Source: Comamonadaceae bacterium (GTDB lineage: Bacteria; Pseudomonadota; Gammaproteobacteria; Burkholderiales; Rhodocyclaceae). From it: a stretch of DNA of 64,000 nucleotides. A program made the position numbers and the translations under genes. Within the stretch, counting starts at the first letter, position 1, and each line of letters starts with the position of its first letter. The DNA lies in NCBI GenBank assembly GCA_029255645.1, contig JANLJE010000012.1, positions 27,338-91,337 of the forward strand. Reading direction: 5' to 3'. Under the pieces are notes generated by a model. The model saw only the letters and a list, made by a program, of their open reading frames with translations, was not told the origin of the DNA and did no database searches. This document shows positions 51,293 to 59,108 of the stretch, one piece after another.

Positions 51293-51966
51293 CAGGGATT
51301 TGGTTGATTTCTATAAAGTTGGTGCCGCCGAATATAGTCGAGAACCTCGTCGGGCAGCAAATAACGGGGACTCGCACCCCGGGACAGCAGGGAGCGGATG
51401 TGGGTGGCGGAAATGTCGAGCTGGGTCATGGGCAGCGGCAGGATGGCGCCCGCCGGGGCCAGGGCCAGGTCTGCGGGCCCGGCACACCGACGTTGGACGA
51501 ATTCCCGCGCCAGGGGTTCCGGCAGGCGTTCCTCCAGCAGCGGGTAGCCCGGCCGGTGCAGCACGGCCAGATGCGCCAGACCGAAAATTTCCTGCCAGCA
51601 GTACCAACTCGCCAGGCCGGTAAAAGCATCGGCGCCCATCAGCAGCACCAGGGGCTGGCGGGGCCCCTGTTCCCGGCGCAGACGCGAGAGCGTGGTCACC
51701 GTGTAGCTGGGCTCCGCCCTCTCCATCTCGCACGCGGCCACCCGGAAATGGGGATTGCCGGCCACCGCCAGGCGCACCATGGCGAGCCGGTGCCGGGGGG
51801 CGATGCGGGGGCTGGCCCGGTGCGGCGGTTGCCCCGCCGGGACCCAGCAAATGGCCGTCAGACCCAGGGCCTCGTGCGCCTCTTCGGCCAGGCGCAGGTG
51901 GCCGAAATGCACCGGATCGAAGGTGCCGCCAAAAATGCCCAGGGGCCGGGTGGCCGTGTCAGGCAT
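51292..51966 (-). CDS. nadD: nicotinate-nucleotide adenylyltransferase
   Basis: GIFGGTFDPVHFGHLRLAEEAHEALGL; LLMGADAFTGLASWYCWQEIFGLAHLAVLHRPGY; ISATHIRSLLSRGASPRYLLPDEVLDYI. Confidence 0.95.
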   Translation of the reverse strand: MPDTATRPLGIFGGTFDPVHFGHLRLAEEAHEALGLTAICWVPAGQPPHRASPRIAPRHRLAMVRLAVAGNPHFRVAACEMERAEPSYTVTTLSRLRREQGPRQPLVLLMGADAFTGLASWYCWQEIFGLAHLAVLHRPGYPLLEERLPEPLAREFVQRRCAGPADLALAPAGAILPLPMTQLDISATHIRSLLSRGASPRYLLPDEVLDYIRRHQLYRNQPNP

Positions 51967-52747
51967 GTTCGGAAACAGGCTCCCGGGGTACGAACACATC
52001 CCGGTAGCTGATATAGAAACTGGCGAACAGCGTGGGGGCCAGCACCATCAGCAGGGGCAAGGTCAGCAGCGAAGTGATGAAGCCGGCCGCACTGGGGAAC
52101 AGGCTGCCCAAAAGGCCGATGACGATCCCCGGCAGAATGGCCCCCACGGCCACCAGGCCCAGGCCATAGACGAGAAAGGCGCGCCAGTTGCGCAGGCAGG
52201 CGATGAAACTGAAGAACAGGGCCTTGCTGACGGAGAGCTGGTGCCAGGCCACCAGGGCCGGTGCATACCAGTAGGCCATCAGTACCGGGGTCATGAGCAG
52301 CAAGATGAGCTGGGCCGCCAGGATGACATTGCCGTTCTCCAGGCCCGCCTCGTCCAGGCCGCCCCTGCCGGCCGCGGCTTGCAGCAGGGCGCCGTCATCC
52401 ACCACGGCGGCCAGGGCCAGCACCGCCAGGGTGCAGACCAGGTAGATTCCCCCCAGCCATATCAGCGGGCGTGGGTGTTCCTTGAGGGGCAAGAAGAACA
52501 GGGCCGGGGTAACGGGCAGGCCCTGATCGACATTGCGGCAGGCGGTCATGACGCCAACCGAGAGTCCGGGCATCACCAGCGAGGCCGCCAGGGGACCGAT
52601 GAAGGGCAGGAGGTTGCAGATCAGCACGCTCATCCAGTACGCCATCGTCAGCAGGCCGATCATGGCGGGCTGGCGGCGGAACAGGGCGTAGCCCTGGGCC
52701 AGCCACTGCCAGCCGCCCAGGGCGGGGAGGGTCAGGGCCTGCATCAC
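51959..52747 (-). CDS. BPSS1780-type membrane protein
   Basis: WQWLAQGYALFRRQPAMIGLL...MTACRNVDQGLPVTPALFFLPLK...ASFYISYRDVF. Confidence 0.8.
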   Translation of the reverse strand: MMQALTLPALGGWQWLAQGYALFRRQPAMIGLLTMAYWMSVLICNLLPFIGPLAASLVMPGLSVGVMTACRNVDQGLPVTPALFFLPLKEHPRPLIWLGGIYLVCTLAVLALAAVVDDGALLQAAAGRGGLDEAGLENGNVILAAQLILLLMTPVLMAYWYAPALVAWHQLSVSKALFFSFIACLRNWRAFLVYGLGLVAVGAILPGIVIGLLGSLFPSAAGFITSLLTLPLLMVLAPTLFASFYISYRDVFVPREPVSEHA

Positions 52748-52780: not shown

Positions 52781-53548
52781 CTAGACACCTAAGAAAATAT
52801 CCCGATAAGAGGCGTAGAGGGCGCCGGACAGTACGGGAATCAAAATCAGAAAACCCAGGCCCAGAGGCAGGGCGGCAAAAAAAGACAGGAGGGACAACAA
52901 CAGTCCGAAGACCAGAAAAGCCAGCCAGTTCTTCAGGCAGGCACTGACGCTGGCCTTGATGGCCGGCACCGGTGCCATGCCCTGCAACAGCACCAGGGCC
53001 GGCGCGAACCAGAGGGCCATGGCGAGCGGCAGAAAGAGTATCACGGCCAGCAGGCCACTCAACAGCAATCCGCCCAGCAGGGGGCCCATGCCACCCATGC
53101 CACCCATGCCACCCATGCCACCCATCCCTTCGATGCCCGGGCCATTGCCCGCCTGCCCGGTGTGATTGAGGAGGAACAGCAGCAGGACGATGCCCAATGT
53201 ACCCAGCATGTTCAGTAGCCCCAGCCCCATCACGCCGCCGCCCCTGGCGACAAAGCCGGCCAGCAGGTCGCCCGGTCGCGGCGCACCCTCCTGGATGCTG
53301 CGCCGACAAGCAGACAACATGCCCGCGGCCAGCGGCGGCAGCAGGAAACTGCTGAGCAGCAGCCCCGGCAGGGAGACACCGGCCGGCACCAGCAAACCCA
53401 GCAGGAAGGACAGACTCAGCCCCAGCCAGCGTCCCGGCGTTGCCCTGAACATGATCCAACCCTGACGCAGCCAGTCGAAACCGGCGCCTGGATCGGTAAC
53501 CCGGCTGCGGCCTTTGAAGGGGATGGGGTCGAGCGGAAAACGGATCAT
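52781..53548 (-). CDS. BPSS1780-type membrane protein (tandem paralogue)
   Basis: FDWLRQGWIMFRATPGRWLGLSL...LSACRRSIQEGAPRPGDLLAGF...ALYASYRDIFLGV parallels the neighbour. Start placed at MIRFPLDPIPF. Confidence 0.8.
   Translation of the reverse strand: MIRFPLDPIPFKGRSRVTDPGAGFDWLRQGWIMFRATPGRWLGLSLSFLLGLLVPAGVSLPGLLLSSFLLPPLAAGMLSACRRSIQEGAPRPGDLLAGFVARGGGVMGLGLLNMLGTLGIVLLLFLLNHTGQAGNGPGIEGMGGMGGMGGMGGMGPLLGGLLLSGLLAVILFLPLAMALWFAPALVLLQGMAPVPAIKASVSACLKNWLAFLVFGLLLSLLSFFAALPLGLGFLILIPVLSGALYASYRDIFLGV
53085..53129. repeat. 4+ copies of a 9 bp in-frame repeat CCCATGCCA
   Basis: Encodes (GGM)n in the BPSS1780-type gene on the minus strand. Confidence 0.95.
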
Positions 53549-53616
53549 GGTCCGGCGGGGTCGGGTTGCACGGGTCGTCATGCTCCGGAAAAGCCGCGCA
53601 TCAGGAAGGCCGGGGA

Positions 53617-56600
53617 TCAAGCCCCGTTCCCGTCCGGCGCTGGGGGGCGCCGCAGTATCTGCAGCGCCTCGTCGAAATCAAAAGACTCGATCGCGCGCCC
53701 CAGCGCCACCAGATCCAGCAGGGCCAGCCGCTGGGCAAATTCTCCTTCATGTGCGGCAAAAAACTGCAGCGCTTCCAGGTCATCCGTCATCAGCAGGCTT
53801 TCCAGTTTGTCGAACAGGGCCTGCAGTTGCTCGGGCGTCAGCTTGGGTGCGCTTGTTGCAGGGGCCGCGCCACTTTCTTCGGTACGGGAGGCCAGCGCCA
53901 GACGCAATTGGCTCACCAGGGCGGGAAGGTGTCGAGCCAGTTGCGAAACTTGCGACCGGGCATCGTCCAGGCTGGCCGCATCGCCCTGGCGCAGGCTGCG
54001 TTCCAGATTTGTCGTCAGGGCCTGGATGTCCTGCAGGCCAAGATTGCCGGCCACTCCCTTCAAGGCATGCACGGCCTGCAACGCCGCTCCGGTCTGGCCG
54101 GTGGCCAGGAGATTCTGGATCCGTTCGCCATCCTGGGCGTGGCTCTCCAGGAACATGCCCAGCAAGCGACGGTACTTGGGCAGTTTGCCGCCGACCAGAC
54201 GCAAGCCAGCAGCCAGGTCGAGCCCCGGCACGCCGGCCAGCGGCTGCAGCAGGGCGTCCTCGCCGGGCGTGGCGGGTGTGCCGGCACCGGCCATGCCCGG
54301 CGGCTCCGCCGGTGCTGCCGGGCGTGGCAGCCAGTGCAGCAGCACCGTAAACAGCTGCTCAGGGTCCACCGGTTTTGCAATATGGTCGTTCATCCCGGCC
54401 GCCAGGCAGGCGGCACGATCTTCCTCGAAGGCATTGGCGGTCATGGCCAGAATCGGGACGGCCGTGCGATCCGGCAGATGCCGGATTGCCCGGGTCGCTT
54501 CCAGGCCATCCATGTGCGGCATCTGCACATCCATCAGGATCAGGTCATAGGGATGGGCGGCGGCCTTGTCCAGCGCCTCGCGACCGTCATTGGCCACGTC
54601 CACCTCGAGCCCCACCTCCTTTAGCAGCGCCAGCGCCACCTCCTGATTGATCGGATTGTCTTCTGCCAGCAGCAAGCGCCGGCCGCGCAGGGGGGCAGGA
54701 TCGAGTTCGGGCGCCTGAGGGCGGGGGGCAATCCGATGCACCCCCTCGCCTGGCTTGTCCGCACAGACATCGACGAGGGTGTCGTGCAGCATGGAAGGGG
54801 TCACCGGCTTGTTGAGCTGGCGGATGATGCCCGCTTCCTGCAGCAATCCGGGCGCCCAGTTGCGGCTGTTGCCGGTGACCAGGATGATCCTGGGCGGCGG
54901 TTCCTGGCCCAGCATCCTGATGCGACGGCTGGTTTCGATGCCGTCCATACCGGGCATGGCCCAGTCCATCAGGATCAGATCAAAGGGCTTGCCCTCCGCC
55001 ATTGCCGCTTTAACGCTGGCCAGGGCGGCTTCGCCCGAGTCGACGCTCCGGGCCTGCACGGCAAAGCTCTGCAGCATGTCCGTCAGCGCCTCCCGGGCAT
55101 CCGCGACATCATCGACCACCAGGGCCCGCATGTTTTTGGGCAAGGCCTGGAGCTGCCGATGCACTTCGCCCGGATTGGCTGCCATCGGCAACTCCAGTTC
55201 GCACCAGAAGGTGCTGCCCTGCCCAAGGTGGCTCTCAACCCCGACCTGCCCCCCCATCAATTCCACCAGACGTTTGCTGATGGCCAGGCCCAGGCCGGTA
55301 CCGCCAAACTTGCGCGTCGTCGAGACATCTGCCTGTTCAAAGGGTTGAAACAGCCGCTCCCGCTGCTCCTCACTGAGGCCAATGCCGGTATCGCTGACCT
55401 CGAAGCGCAGCCGGACCCCTGTCGCCGTTTCTTCGAGGCGGCGGGCGCGGAAGATGATGCTGCCGGTTTCGGTGAATTTGACCGCATTACTGGCGAAATT
55501 GAGGAGTACCTGCTCCAGGCGCATGCGGTCTCCGTGCAGCATCAGGGGAATGTCCGGGTCAATGCGATTGACGACTTCCAGCCCCTTGTCGCAGGCCTTG
55601 TCGGCGATCATGTCATTGAGATTGCGGAATACCTCGTCCAGCTCGAAATCCCTGGCCTCGATGTTGAATTTGCCGGCTTCGATCTTGGAGAAGTCGAGAA
55701 TGTCGTTGATGATGCCCAGCAAGTGCTGCGCCGCCTGGGCAATCTTGTCGAGCTGCTCCAGCTGGTGCGCATCAGTGGTGTTGCGCCGGAGCAGATGGGT
55801 GAGGCCGATGATGGCATTCATCGGGGTGCGGATTTCATGGCTCATGTTGGCCAGGAAGGAACTCTTGAAGCGGTTGGCCGCCTCGGCCGACTGCTTGGCC
55901 TGCTCCAGTTCGCGGGTACGGGATGCCACCAGGCCTTCGAGGTGCATCTGGATTTCGAGCAAATCCCGGGTGCGCTGATCAAAGCGCACGGCCAGGTCTT
56001 CCAGTTCGTCGCCGGTGCCCAGCGGCGCGCAATGCGTTTCCGGGTTGCCATCGGCCTGGGCCACCCGTTGCTGCAGCAGCAGGATCGGCCGGGAAATGGA
56101 AAGGCCGAGACGATAGGCAATGAAAATGGCCGCCAGGGTCAGCGCCATGCCCAGTACGCTCACATCCCGGACAGCGTTGAAGGCGGGCTGGAGATAATGT
56201 TGACGCGGCGCCATCACCTCGATCTGCAAATCGAGGTCGGAAAGAAAGCCTTGCCCTGGCTGGACCACGTTCTGACGCGCCCGCACCAGATCCGTGCCGA
56301 CCCCTTCCGGATGATGCTCGTAGAGCACCCGCTCCCCGGACAGCAGGCGGTAGCTGAACAAGGGGTCGATGCGCAGCACCCGGTGCGCCACCTCGCCCAG
56401 ATTGAACGCCACCACCAGTACGCCCTGGGTGGTGCTGTAGTAATTGACCGGCACGAATACGACCCATTGCCCCCGTTCCGGGTCCACCAGATAGTTGCTG
56501 GCGCCATTGGCAAGGACACTGCGCAGCACGGGAGAATCCGCGTAAGTCGGCAGGGATTCGAGGCTCGAATAAACGGGTTTGCCGTCGTAGCCGAGCAAGG

Positions 56601-56943
56601 CCACCGCGTGCACATCGCGGCCTTCGCGGAAATTCTTCACCAGTTTAGGCAGATAGGTCTGGCGGCCCTGGGCGTCGTTGAGGCCATTGATCACCAGCGG
56701 GTTCTTCACCAGCACGGTAGCGCTTTCGAGCAGGTAATCGAGGCGCTGCATGAGCAGCACCCCGTTCTGCTGGGCGCGGGCTTCCAGTTCGTGATGGAGG
56801 TTGCGGGTGATGATGCTGTACAACTGGAGCGCCACGATCATCGCAACCGTGATCATGGCCAGGGCCACGAACAGCCCGAAGGTCCAGGTGATGCGGCGCT
56901 CCAGGCGGCGCGTGAAATAATCTGGAAAGTGCAGGCTCATCAT
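53617..56943 (-). CDS. hybrid sensor histidine kinase (Cache-like sensor, HAMP, HisKA, HATPase, 2 REC, Hpt)
   Basis: [48 protein letters not shown]; two REC domains ([26 protein letters not shown]); [13 protein letters not shown] Hpt. Confidence 0.95.
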
Positions 56944-59108
56944 TGCACCGCGACGATATTTCCCGCTGCGTCATACCGGGCGAGGCGCAGGAAACGCCGG
57001 TCCAGGGCATCGTGATCGTCAGGGGAGAAGGGGCGTTTGTAATCCTGCATCACGCCGGCATGGTGGGGGATCTGTTCGAGTTCGCGCCGGATGGCTTCCC
57101 GGTCCTGCGACCTGGCCTGCGTCACCGCCCGGGCCAGCAGATGCACCAGATCGTAAGCATGGACGGAACCCATCAGGGCCGGCACTGGCGCCTCCTGACC
57201 GTAACGTTTCCGGTAACGCTCGAGGAAGGCGTTCAGGGCCGGCCGGCGATGCGCATCGTCGACCACCACGGTCTGCACGAAGCGCAAATCGACGCGCTGC
57301 AGATCGTGCTGGGCGGCGGCAAAGAAATTGCCGCCGGTCATCCCCCAGTGGGAAAAAACCGGTACCGGTTCGTCCTGCTGGGCGACGGCCTTCACCGCCG
57401 CCTGGGTTTCATGGGCTTGGAGCACCAGCACCAGGCTGCGGACCCCGCGCTGTAGCAAGGCTTCGGTCTGGAGGCCGATGTCGGGGTCGCCCGGATTGAC
57501 CCATTGAATGTTCACCCGCCCCGCGGGCAGTCTGGCGAGCATGGCGGCGATCGCCTGGGCGTTGCTGCGGCCCCAGGCCGAACGCTCCAGCAGCATGCCG
57601 ACCGTACCGCCCTGGCCCAGGGCGTGCCCGAGCAGAACAGGCGCCACATCCTGATCGTCGAGCGAAGCCCGGAACAGGTAGCTGGGCGAATGCCCATGCT
57701 GCATGACGTCGTGGTTGGCCGCCCAGGGCACGAGATAAGGCAGCTGCAGGCGGTGAATATCTTCCATTTCAGCGAGGATGACCGCCGAATGCTGCCCTCC
57801 CATCACCGCCAGCATCCGGGGCAGGCGGGCGAACCATGCCAGGTTCTGCCGCCCCACGGAAGGATTGCCGCCGTGATCCCGGGCAAGAATTTGCAAGGGG
57901 CGTCCGAGCAGGCCGCCCTTCTGGTTGATTTCTTCTTGCGCCAGCTGCATGCCCCGGTAAATCGCCCCGCCGGCCAGGACGCCATTGTTCGACAGGTCGG
58001 CATCCAGACCGATGATCAAGGGTTCCTTGCCTGCCGCCGGCATCTGCCGCAGGTAGCGCAACTCCCCGGTCTTGCCGAGCAGGTCATAACCCACTTCAAA
58101 GCCGAAATGATCGGCCAGCGGCGCCATGACGGCGCTGAAACGCTGGCGTTGCCCGGGCGTCAGGGTATGGATCTCGACCCCGGCCGCGCGGATCGTCTCG
58201 ATCAGGCCCGCTTCCAGGCGCGCGGTTTCTTCGCGCTCCCACTGCGTCAGTTCCCGGGCGGTATCCTGAATCACCTCGCGCAACCCGGGCGACAGGGTTT
58301 CAAACACCGGCTTGCTGGCCGCAAACACATAGCCCAGGTAGGCATGATGGGAAAGCGTCAGATGCTTTTGCACCTCATGAATGCCCATCGCCACGATCGC
58401 CACCAGCGGATTTTCCTGCCCATCTACCGCCTGCTCGGCCAATGCCTGGCGCACCCTGTGGAAGTCGATCGGGATGGGCTGGGCGCCCAGGGCCGCAAAC
58501 TGCTCGGCAATCAGCCGGCTCTTCATGGTGCGGATGCGCAGTCCGGCAAAATCCTCGGGAGAGTGAATGGGGCGGTTGGCGGTGAACTGCTTGAAACCGT
58601 TTTCCCAGAAGGTCAGTCCCACCAGGCCTAGCTGATGCAGTTTGGCGAGCAGCATCTGGCCCGGCTCGCCATCGAGCATGGCGTACAACTCCTCGCGGCT
58701 GGAAAAATAAAAGGGCAGGTCGGCATACTGCATCGCAGGAATGGCAGAACTGAGCTTGGCCGAGGGAATCAGCAAAAAGTCCAGTTGCCCGTTGCGCGCC
58801 ATTTCCAGCATCTGATCGTCGTTGCCTAGTTGCTGATCGGGAAAGACCTGGACCTGCAGCCGTCCCTTGCTACGTTCTCCCACCTGTTCGGCAAAACGCA
58901 GGGCCGCTTTGTGCAGGGCACTGCCGGCCGCGATATTGAGTCCCAGGCGCAGGGTGCGCGGCGGGCCTGGCCGAGCCGCCTCGGCCGGGAGCGGGATATG
59001 GGCGGGGGCGCGCAGCCAGATCGCCCAAAACAGCAGCGCTCCGGCCAGCAGGGCGGTCAGGATCAATATCAGACGCGGGTTCGGGATCGGGATCTTCATG
59101 GACGCCAC
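56940..59108 (-). CDS. fused TRAP DctP-like / ABC peripla_BP_6-like dual substrate-binding protein with N-terminal membrane anchor
   Basis: N-half [60 protein letters not shown] (DctP); C-half [57 protein letters not shown] (branched-chain amino acid type SBP); N-terminal [22 protein letters not shown]. Confidence 0.88.

Follow-up and report, generated by a model that had tools for sequence, protein, structure and literature searches.

We report a two-domain solute-binding protein (SBP) that very probably forms, together with the histidine kinase encoded immediately after it, a co-receptor pair used for signalling only. Both genes lie on the reverse strand of a 64 kb window, i.e. the whole stretch of DNA that was analysed. 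The two SBP domains most likely report on chemicals outside the cell rather than import them, because their gene is invariably followed directly by one for a membrane sensor. The first-pass annotation had proposed a protein dedicated to signalling rather than uptake, and this view is supported by the wider comparison, in which the sensor gene is the sole conserved partner and permeases are not. The pair of a DctP+Peripla_BP_6 (BP_6) fusion and its sensor is widespread and, apparently, undescribed.

The fused gene (56940..59108) has a GTG start and encodes 722 aa in a single ORF, and its stop overlaps the start of the kinase gene by the four letters ATGA (56940..56943); the same overlap, or a gap of less than 25 nt, is found in most homologues. 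The AlphaFold model of the protein (mean pLDDT 91, pTM 0.88) comprises a helix (residues 11-32), a disordered linker (33-45), a DctP domain (51-354) and a BP_6 domain (364-720). Residues 355-363 form the inter-domain linker in the model and the alignment (58020..58046), so that the junction proposed earlier, near plus 58030, was correctly placed. Pfam identified both domains far above the cut-offs, and the protein thus has two real SBP domains, one of the TRAP type followed by one of the ABC type.

The DctP domain (58047..58958) belongs to the TRAP SBPs by both sequence family and fold (PF03480, residues 59-334, E 5e-87, 292 bits against a cut-off of 23.4; TM 0.91 to PDB 4p47). Residue R193, located in strand 191-194 of the model, is invariant in 31/31 aligned fusions and aligns with the carboxylate-binding arginine in strand 6 of TRAP SBPs, where a conserved arginine binds the carboxylate of the ligand (PMC5812351). 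The ligand of this half is therefore probably a carboxylate. The second half (56949..58019) matches Peripla_BP_6, the family of branched-chain amino acid ABC-type SBPs (PF13458, residues 366-700, E 5e-31, 109 bits against 31.7), as well as PDB 3hut (E 5e-14).

The predicted N-terminal transmembrane helix (59013..59078), already suggested from the single sequence, recurs in nearly all homologues. On inspection of the sequences, it consists of an uncharged core of 17-22 aa followed by a charged P/A-rich linker, with no evident signal-peptide cleavage site after this transmembrane-length segment, and the protein thus departs from the soluble form with a cleaved signal peptide that is typical of Gram-negative TRAP SBPs. 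Variants include a lipobox in the basal L115 and a cysteine right after the core in L113. The fused SBP hence appears to be anchored in the membrane by an uncleaved-looking helix and not free.

The partner gene (53617..56943) encodes a hybrid histidine kinase of 1108 aa. Pfam and AlphaFold agreed with the domain content first read from its sequence: an extracytoplasmic sensor between TM1 and TM2 (about residues 44-248, 56200..56814), HisKA and HATPase_c (residues 360-586, 55186..55866), two receiver domains (about residues 606-867, 54343..55128; PF00072 in two stretches, the best at 758-867) and an Hpt domain (residues 926-1011, 53911..54168). The sensor is predicted to adopt a dCache fold. 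Its model (pLDDT 87) matched KinD, DctB, PctA and LuxQ in Foldseek with E values of 1e-6 to 1e-4, and the Pfam dCache_1 match was weak (30.7 bits, under the 45-bit cut-off). Such a domain could bind a ligand by itself, a point against the co-receptor reading.

A search for homologues with the same domain order and kinase adjacency recovered 66 distinct fusions from isolates and metagenome-assembled genomes (MAGs), distributed over beta-, gamma- and other Pseudomonadota, Magnetococcales, SAR324, Campylobacterota and Thermodesulfobacteriota. Pairing was assessed in three sets, namely a discovery set, a sensor-led class search and a phylum set. At 66/66 fusions (loci with sequence room), the gene that comes next encodes, at its beginning, a relative of the window kinase's sensor domain; the phylum set accounted for 31/31, of which 23 were new beyond the discovery set. 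Beyond this pair, no other gene recurred around the fusions. The notion that the fusion is confined to the genus of the window was rejected, as other genera and phyla carry it; the three congeners in the sample gave no match at E <= 1e-40. Plasmid records gave no match.

The output that follows the sensor varies among relatives, from histidine kinases with one or two receivers, with or without Hpt, PAS or GAF domains, to GGDEF-EAL in Sulfuricurvum. Genes for GGDEF, EAL or HD-GYP proteins occur within 5 kb downstream at 18/34 loci and upstream at 3/34, a count that takes in related loci, and neighbouring genes of this kind suggest that the pair often acts on c-di-GMP turnover. In the genome of the window itself, neither a c-di-GMP gene nor a response regulator adjoins the pair.

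Several other explanations of the locus were weighed. Apart from the unusual architecture, nothing favours an assembly or frameshift error that joined two genes, and we consider its probability negligible: dozens of independent genomes, both isolates and MAGs, carry the same fusion, and the protein yields a single confident two-domain model. A TRAP or ABC uptake operon at the locus was likewise rejected. No homologue of DctQ, DctM or LivHM was detected anywhere in the 64 kb window, where positive controls were found, and this extends to the full window the earlier observation that permease genes are missing nearby. Conserved permease partners in homologues would have spoken for transport, but across 716 kb around 46 fused loci no TRAP or ABC permease was present, the sole exception being a Liv fragment 8 kb away, at the contig edge in L043. 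The fusions therefore have neither the DctQ/DctM partnership of a TRAP SBP nor the LivH/M partnership of an ABC SBP. It is also conceivable, though quite improbable, that the protein serves two uses as BctC does, feeding TRAP and/or ABC permeases encoded elsewhere while informing the kinase. DctP and BP_6 are indeed transport SBP families, and most fusion-bearing genomes have some DctM elsewhere. Against such dual use, a permease is never adjacent to the fusion, the fused protein is tethered to the membrane, pairing of TRAP SBPs with their QM permeases is specific (PMC5812351), and 6/32 fusion-bearing genomes lack DctM altogether, some of them incomplete MAGs but one an isolate, Methylomonas methanica R-45363. 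In the genome of the window, the single DctM is accompanied by an SBP of its own and sits on a contig other than that of the fusion; LivHM are on contig C38.

A further question is what each half contributes to a signalling pair. Sixteen relatives possess a BP_6 domain only, and 13 of these directly precede a sensor homologue (L088, L089, L091, L114, L116, L117, L119-L123, L125 and L126), which indicates that a pair resembling LuxPQ and NspS-MbaA occurs both in a form that includes DctP and in one that lacks it. Their BP_6 domains are 30-40% identical to that of the fusion and share W462, R480, D485, W512, R514, H587 and Q612 with it, whereas the DctP half is absent and the sensors are more diverged (40-130 bits). 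DctP is accordingly not required for pairing and, given also its position before BP_6 and adjoining the anchor, could lack a sensing role and act as a rigid spacer or a platform for dimerisation, placing BP_6, the sole receptor, on the sensor. We regard this as unlikely, since DctP shows higher conservation than BP_6 (0.61 against 0.40 in mean pairwise identity), retains the ligand-binding R193, and diverges in closer step with the sensor than BP_6 does (partial r 0.60 against 0.38). The trees favoured neither gain nor loss of DctP. In the DctP tree, the fusions clustered together with 74% bootstrap support, closest to L015, a TRAP SBP with DctQM; in that of the BP_6 domains, the relatives without DctP formed one clade beside two basal fusions, the single outgroup being too long to root the tree. 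It is plausible that the fusion binds two ligands, both pockets having kept conserved residues. A bolder reading, to which we give somewhat less than even odds, is a two-input (AND or ratio) detector, in which each half has a ligand of its own and the sensor responds to both at once. It would have arisen when a TRAP-derived DctP was added to a BP_6/dCache co-receptor that already existed, and would afterwards have reached several phyla while its kinase or c-di-GMP outputs were exchanged.

In the proposed mechanism, the N-terminal helix would hold the DctP+BP_6 protein at the periplasmic face of the inner membrane, where it would touch the dCache sensor of the kinase; such contact is expected from gene pairing and precedent. 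Ligand binding would close one or both flytrap domains and change the dCache dimer, which in turn would set autokinase or phosphatase activity. Phosphate would then be relayed, via the receivers and the Hpt domain, to a response regulator encoded away from the locus. We infer this direction of signalling, and the logic would be that of LuxP-LuxQ or NspS-MbaA with a second, unrelated flytrap domain added.

The NCBIfam models TIGR00787 and NF037995, which serve automatic annotation, label the fused protein as a TRAP transporter subunit, and a family of sensors is therefore likely to be misfiled as transporters. With strict pairing, a tethering anchor and exchangeable output, the pair is well suited to studying the integration of two extracellular ligands by a single transducer, as well as the conversion of transport proteins into receptors. 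For freshwater betaproteobacteria, methanotrophs and magnetotactic bacteria, the signal may matter ecologically.

In the open-access literature, we found no description of a DctP-Peripla_BP_6 fusion or of BP_6-only SBPs paired with dCache transducers. As to precedents, the first-pass annotation had noted that SBPs acting as co-sensors are known singly, but TakP, which it cited, is a poorer precedent than LuxP-LuxQ, NspS-MbaA, B. subtilis DctB-DctS or BctC-BctE. An SBP gene paired with a gene for a dCache transducer, as seen at the 66 distinct loci and from the sensor fold, is the LuxPQ-type arrangement. By this analogy the pair appears to work like LuxPQ, yet the fused SBP is no member of the LuxP family, its Pfam matches being DctP and Peripla_BP_6. 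In the Vibrio AI-2 receptor, likewise, the partner of a dCache (double-PDC) hybrid kinase is a type I periplasmic binding protein, and LuxQ is itself among the structural matches of the window sensor. LuxP differs in that it has just one domain, belongs to another SBP family and is not known to be membrane-tethered, whereas the window protein adds DctP; AI-2 is not implied as a ligand. LuxQ senses AI-2 via LuxP (PMC8534201). In the polyamine sensor NspS-MbaA of Vibrio cholerae, the genes for the SBP and the membrane transducer overlap as well, and the output depends on SBP occupancy (PMC8967002). NspS has a single polyamine-binding domain instead of DctP+BP_6, and the transducer in the window is a hybrid kinase; the Sulfuricurvum fusions, too, precede GGDEF-EAL transducers. 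The SBP domain of B. subtilis DctB is DctP-like, but this Gram-positive protein has one SBP domain and works together with the transporter DctA. In the DctB-DctS-DctA system, the membrane-bound C4-dicarboxylate-binding co-receptor is needed by the kinase (PMC6978683). BctC-BctDE of Bordetella, with the orphan TctC/Bug proteins, shows a secondary-transporter SBP signalling to a two-component kinase (PMC5812351); BctC is of the TctC family, also transports and is not fused. In BvgS and EvgS, two tandem flytrap domains feed a hybrid REC-Hpt kinase (PMC8534201), but these are of the same family and within the kinase polypeptide, whereas the window system places two unrelated SBP classes in a separate, anchored protein beside a dCache kinase.

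The window encodes, on the minus strand, a fused SBP of 722 aa with a GTG start (56940-59108) and a hybrid kinase of 1108 aa with an ATG start (53617-56943), both by ORF reading, the stop of the first overlapping the start codon of the second in an ATGA. Pfam placed DctP at residues 59-334 (5e-87) and Peripla_BP_6 at residues 366-700 (5e-31) of the fusion, and recovered HisKA, HATPase_c, two receivers and an Hpt in the kinase, the N-terminus of which gave only a sub-threshold match to dCache_1. The AlphaFold model of the fusion, computed from an alignment of 31 homologues, was confident (pLDDT 91, pTM 0.88) and comprised a helix (residues 11-32) followed by a disordered linker, a DctP domain (51-354) that superposes on solved TRAP SBPs (TM 0.91 to 4p47) and a BP_6 domain (364-720). 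The fused ORF and its coordinates, the ATGA overlap and the kinase domains were thus as the first-pass annotation had read them. The sensor, the input domain of the kinase, was modelled as a dCache fold (pLDDT 87) matching KinD, DctB, PctA and LuxQ.

The DctP-BP_6 fusion is a family and no accident. Four sources (a protein search of the window organism's own family, GTDB species genomes scanned by pattern, a search across the class starting from the sensor and one across the phylum with a fusion profile) yielded 66 distinct fused proteins after copy removal, or 61 groups at 90% identity, with the sensor behind each that had sequence there; these 66 proteins rule out an assembly or frameshift error joining two ORFs in the window. 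Carriers include Rhodocyclales and relatives (Dechloromonas, Zoogloea), Rhodoferax, Methylomonas, Methylobacter, Magnetococcales, SAR324, Sulfuricurvum (Campylobacterota) and Desulfobulbaceae. Among the 399 genomes sampled from the phylum, with the window's own counted in, 27 had a junction-spanning match and a further six a BP_6-only relative. Six genomes (G585, G563, G660, G566, G593 and G557; loci L166-L171) hold, in addition to a copy scoring over 990 bits, a second fused SBP that is diverged (370-470 bits), and behind it a sensor that is likewise diverged (88-125 bits). At L052 (7941-10179, a MAG) a frameshift, possibly a sequencing error, splits the fused gene near query residue 580, and the kinase gene is still present behind it.

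The only constant partner of the fusion is the sensor. At all fused loci with sequence behind, the next same-strand gene opens with a homologue of the first 350 residues of the window kinase, usually with a 4-base overlap or a gap of <25 bases; this held in 31 of 31 loci of the non-discovery set, 23 of them previously unseen, and no third neighbour gene recurred across fused loci. In the reverse search with a sensor profile, every strong match (over 200 bits) followed a fused SBP, and so did a partial match (102 bits) where a contig ends; three weak matches (68-132 bits) followed a BP_6-only SBP, and L118 had no SBP. On its short contig, the L118 protein (359-2524) matches the sensor/HAMP region in part (60 bits), and no SBP gene was detected nearby.

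DctQ, DctM and LivH/M, queries for which retrieved their own operons, were found neither in the window nor in the 716 kb of sequence surrounding 46 fused loci, bar a Liv fragment that lies 8 kb away from the fusion, right at the end of L043; the early remark that no TRAP or ABC permease lies near the locus is borne out. DctM was absent altogether from 6 of the 32 fusion-bearing genomes, among them the isolate Methylomonas methanica R-45363 and some others that are incomplete MAGs, and the single DctM of the window's genome lies on a different contig, accompanied by an SBP of its own. The missing neighbours and the DctM-less genomes rule out a transport locus.

The output behind the sensor is exchangeable: hybrid kinases that have one or two receivers and in some cases also Hpt, PAS or GAF, kinases without a receiver at Desulfobulbaceae-type loci, and a GGDEF-EAL module in place of the kinase at both Sulfuricurvum loci. 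Constancy of the SBP-sensor pair under changing outputs is the pattern expected of a receptor subunit. Genes of c-di-GMP turnover (GGDEF, EAL, HD-GYP) occur within 5 kb downstream at 18 of 34 loci and upstream at 3 of 34, and include REC-HD-GYP and REC-GAF-GGDEF regulators near the sensor gene; such neighbours hint at a c-di-GMP output in several lineages. Behind the window kinase lie two hydrophobic membrane proteins (52781-53620 and 51959-52747, minus strand) without Pfam matches, and no c-di-GMP gene adjoins it; neither protein recurs at other fused loci, and in the former there is a repeated Met-Gly-Gly stretch (GMGGMGGMGGMGGMG). In a Zoogloea-like genome (L040, 13143-15946), the region downstream of the fused pair encodes an SBP_bac_8 protein and, after it, a sensor-HAMP-GGDEF protein, possibly another SBP/transducer pair; at the corresponding position three Zoogloea-like loci (L041, L045, L081) have a GGDEF gene.

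As to origin, L087, a genuine TRAP SBP with DctQ and DctM behind it, is the closest DctP-only relative, and 13 of the 16 nearest BP_6-only relatives have a distantly related sensor directly behind them, their dCache-type transducers likewise having kinase or GGDEF-EAL outputs (L088, L089, L091, L114, L116, L117, L119-L123, L125 and L126). Common to BP_6 domains of both kinds, fused and solo, are W462, R480, D485, W512, R514, H587, Q612 and D653. The simplest story is that a BP_6/dCache co-receptor gained the DctP domain; the trees leave the root unfixed, and DctP may instead have been lost in the solo clade. We found no description of the BP_6-only pair in the open-access literature, though it is common. 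In the window's own genome, a BP_6 SBP of 513 aa overlaps a HAMP-PAS-GGDEF-EAL protein by 4 bases (L094, contig C28, 3403-7361), the two making a second SBP signalling pair.

Inspection of nearly all fusions revealed an N-terminal uncharged stretch of 17-22 residues, then charged residues and a linker rich in Pro and Ala; no signal peptidase site was evident by eye. In the basal L115 there is a lipobox, and in L113 a Cys directly after the hydrophobic core. Either form would hold the fusion at the membrane. In LuxP-LuxQ the kinase senses its ligand via a periplasmic binding protein (PMC8534201), and in NspS-MbaA the SBP gene overlaps the transducer gene, as in the fused pair, and ligand occupancy of the SBP sets the activity of the membrane transducer (PMC8967002). 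By analogy, the anchored double SBP would most likely sit on the dCache sensor, its ligand state setting kinase activity. In TRAP SBPs a conserved Arg binds the ligand carboxylate (PMC5812351); because this residue is kept (R193) and the DctP half is the more conserved (mean identity 0.61 vs 0.40 for the BP_6 half), the DctP half is expected to bind a carboxylate. Contact with the sensor, ligands and signalling logic are what we infer from such comparisons.

Known precedents are single SBPs that serve kinases as co-receptors (LuxP, TorT, BctC, B. subtilis DctB) and tandem flytraps inside one kinase (BvgS, EvgS). The open-access literature yielded no account of a DctP-Peripla_BP_6 fusion or its sensor pair, in agreement with the first-pass annotation, which knew of no fusion of these two SBP classes. 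Within that literature, the SBP co-receptor principle is already known and the DctP-BP_6 double SBP appears to be new; whereas BvgS and EvgS carry their tandem flytraps within the kinase itself, the fused pair consists of a separate SBP protein and a sensor.
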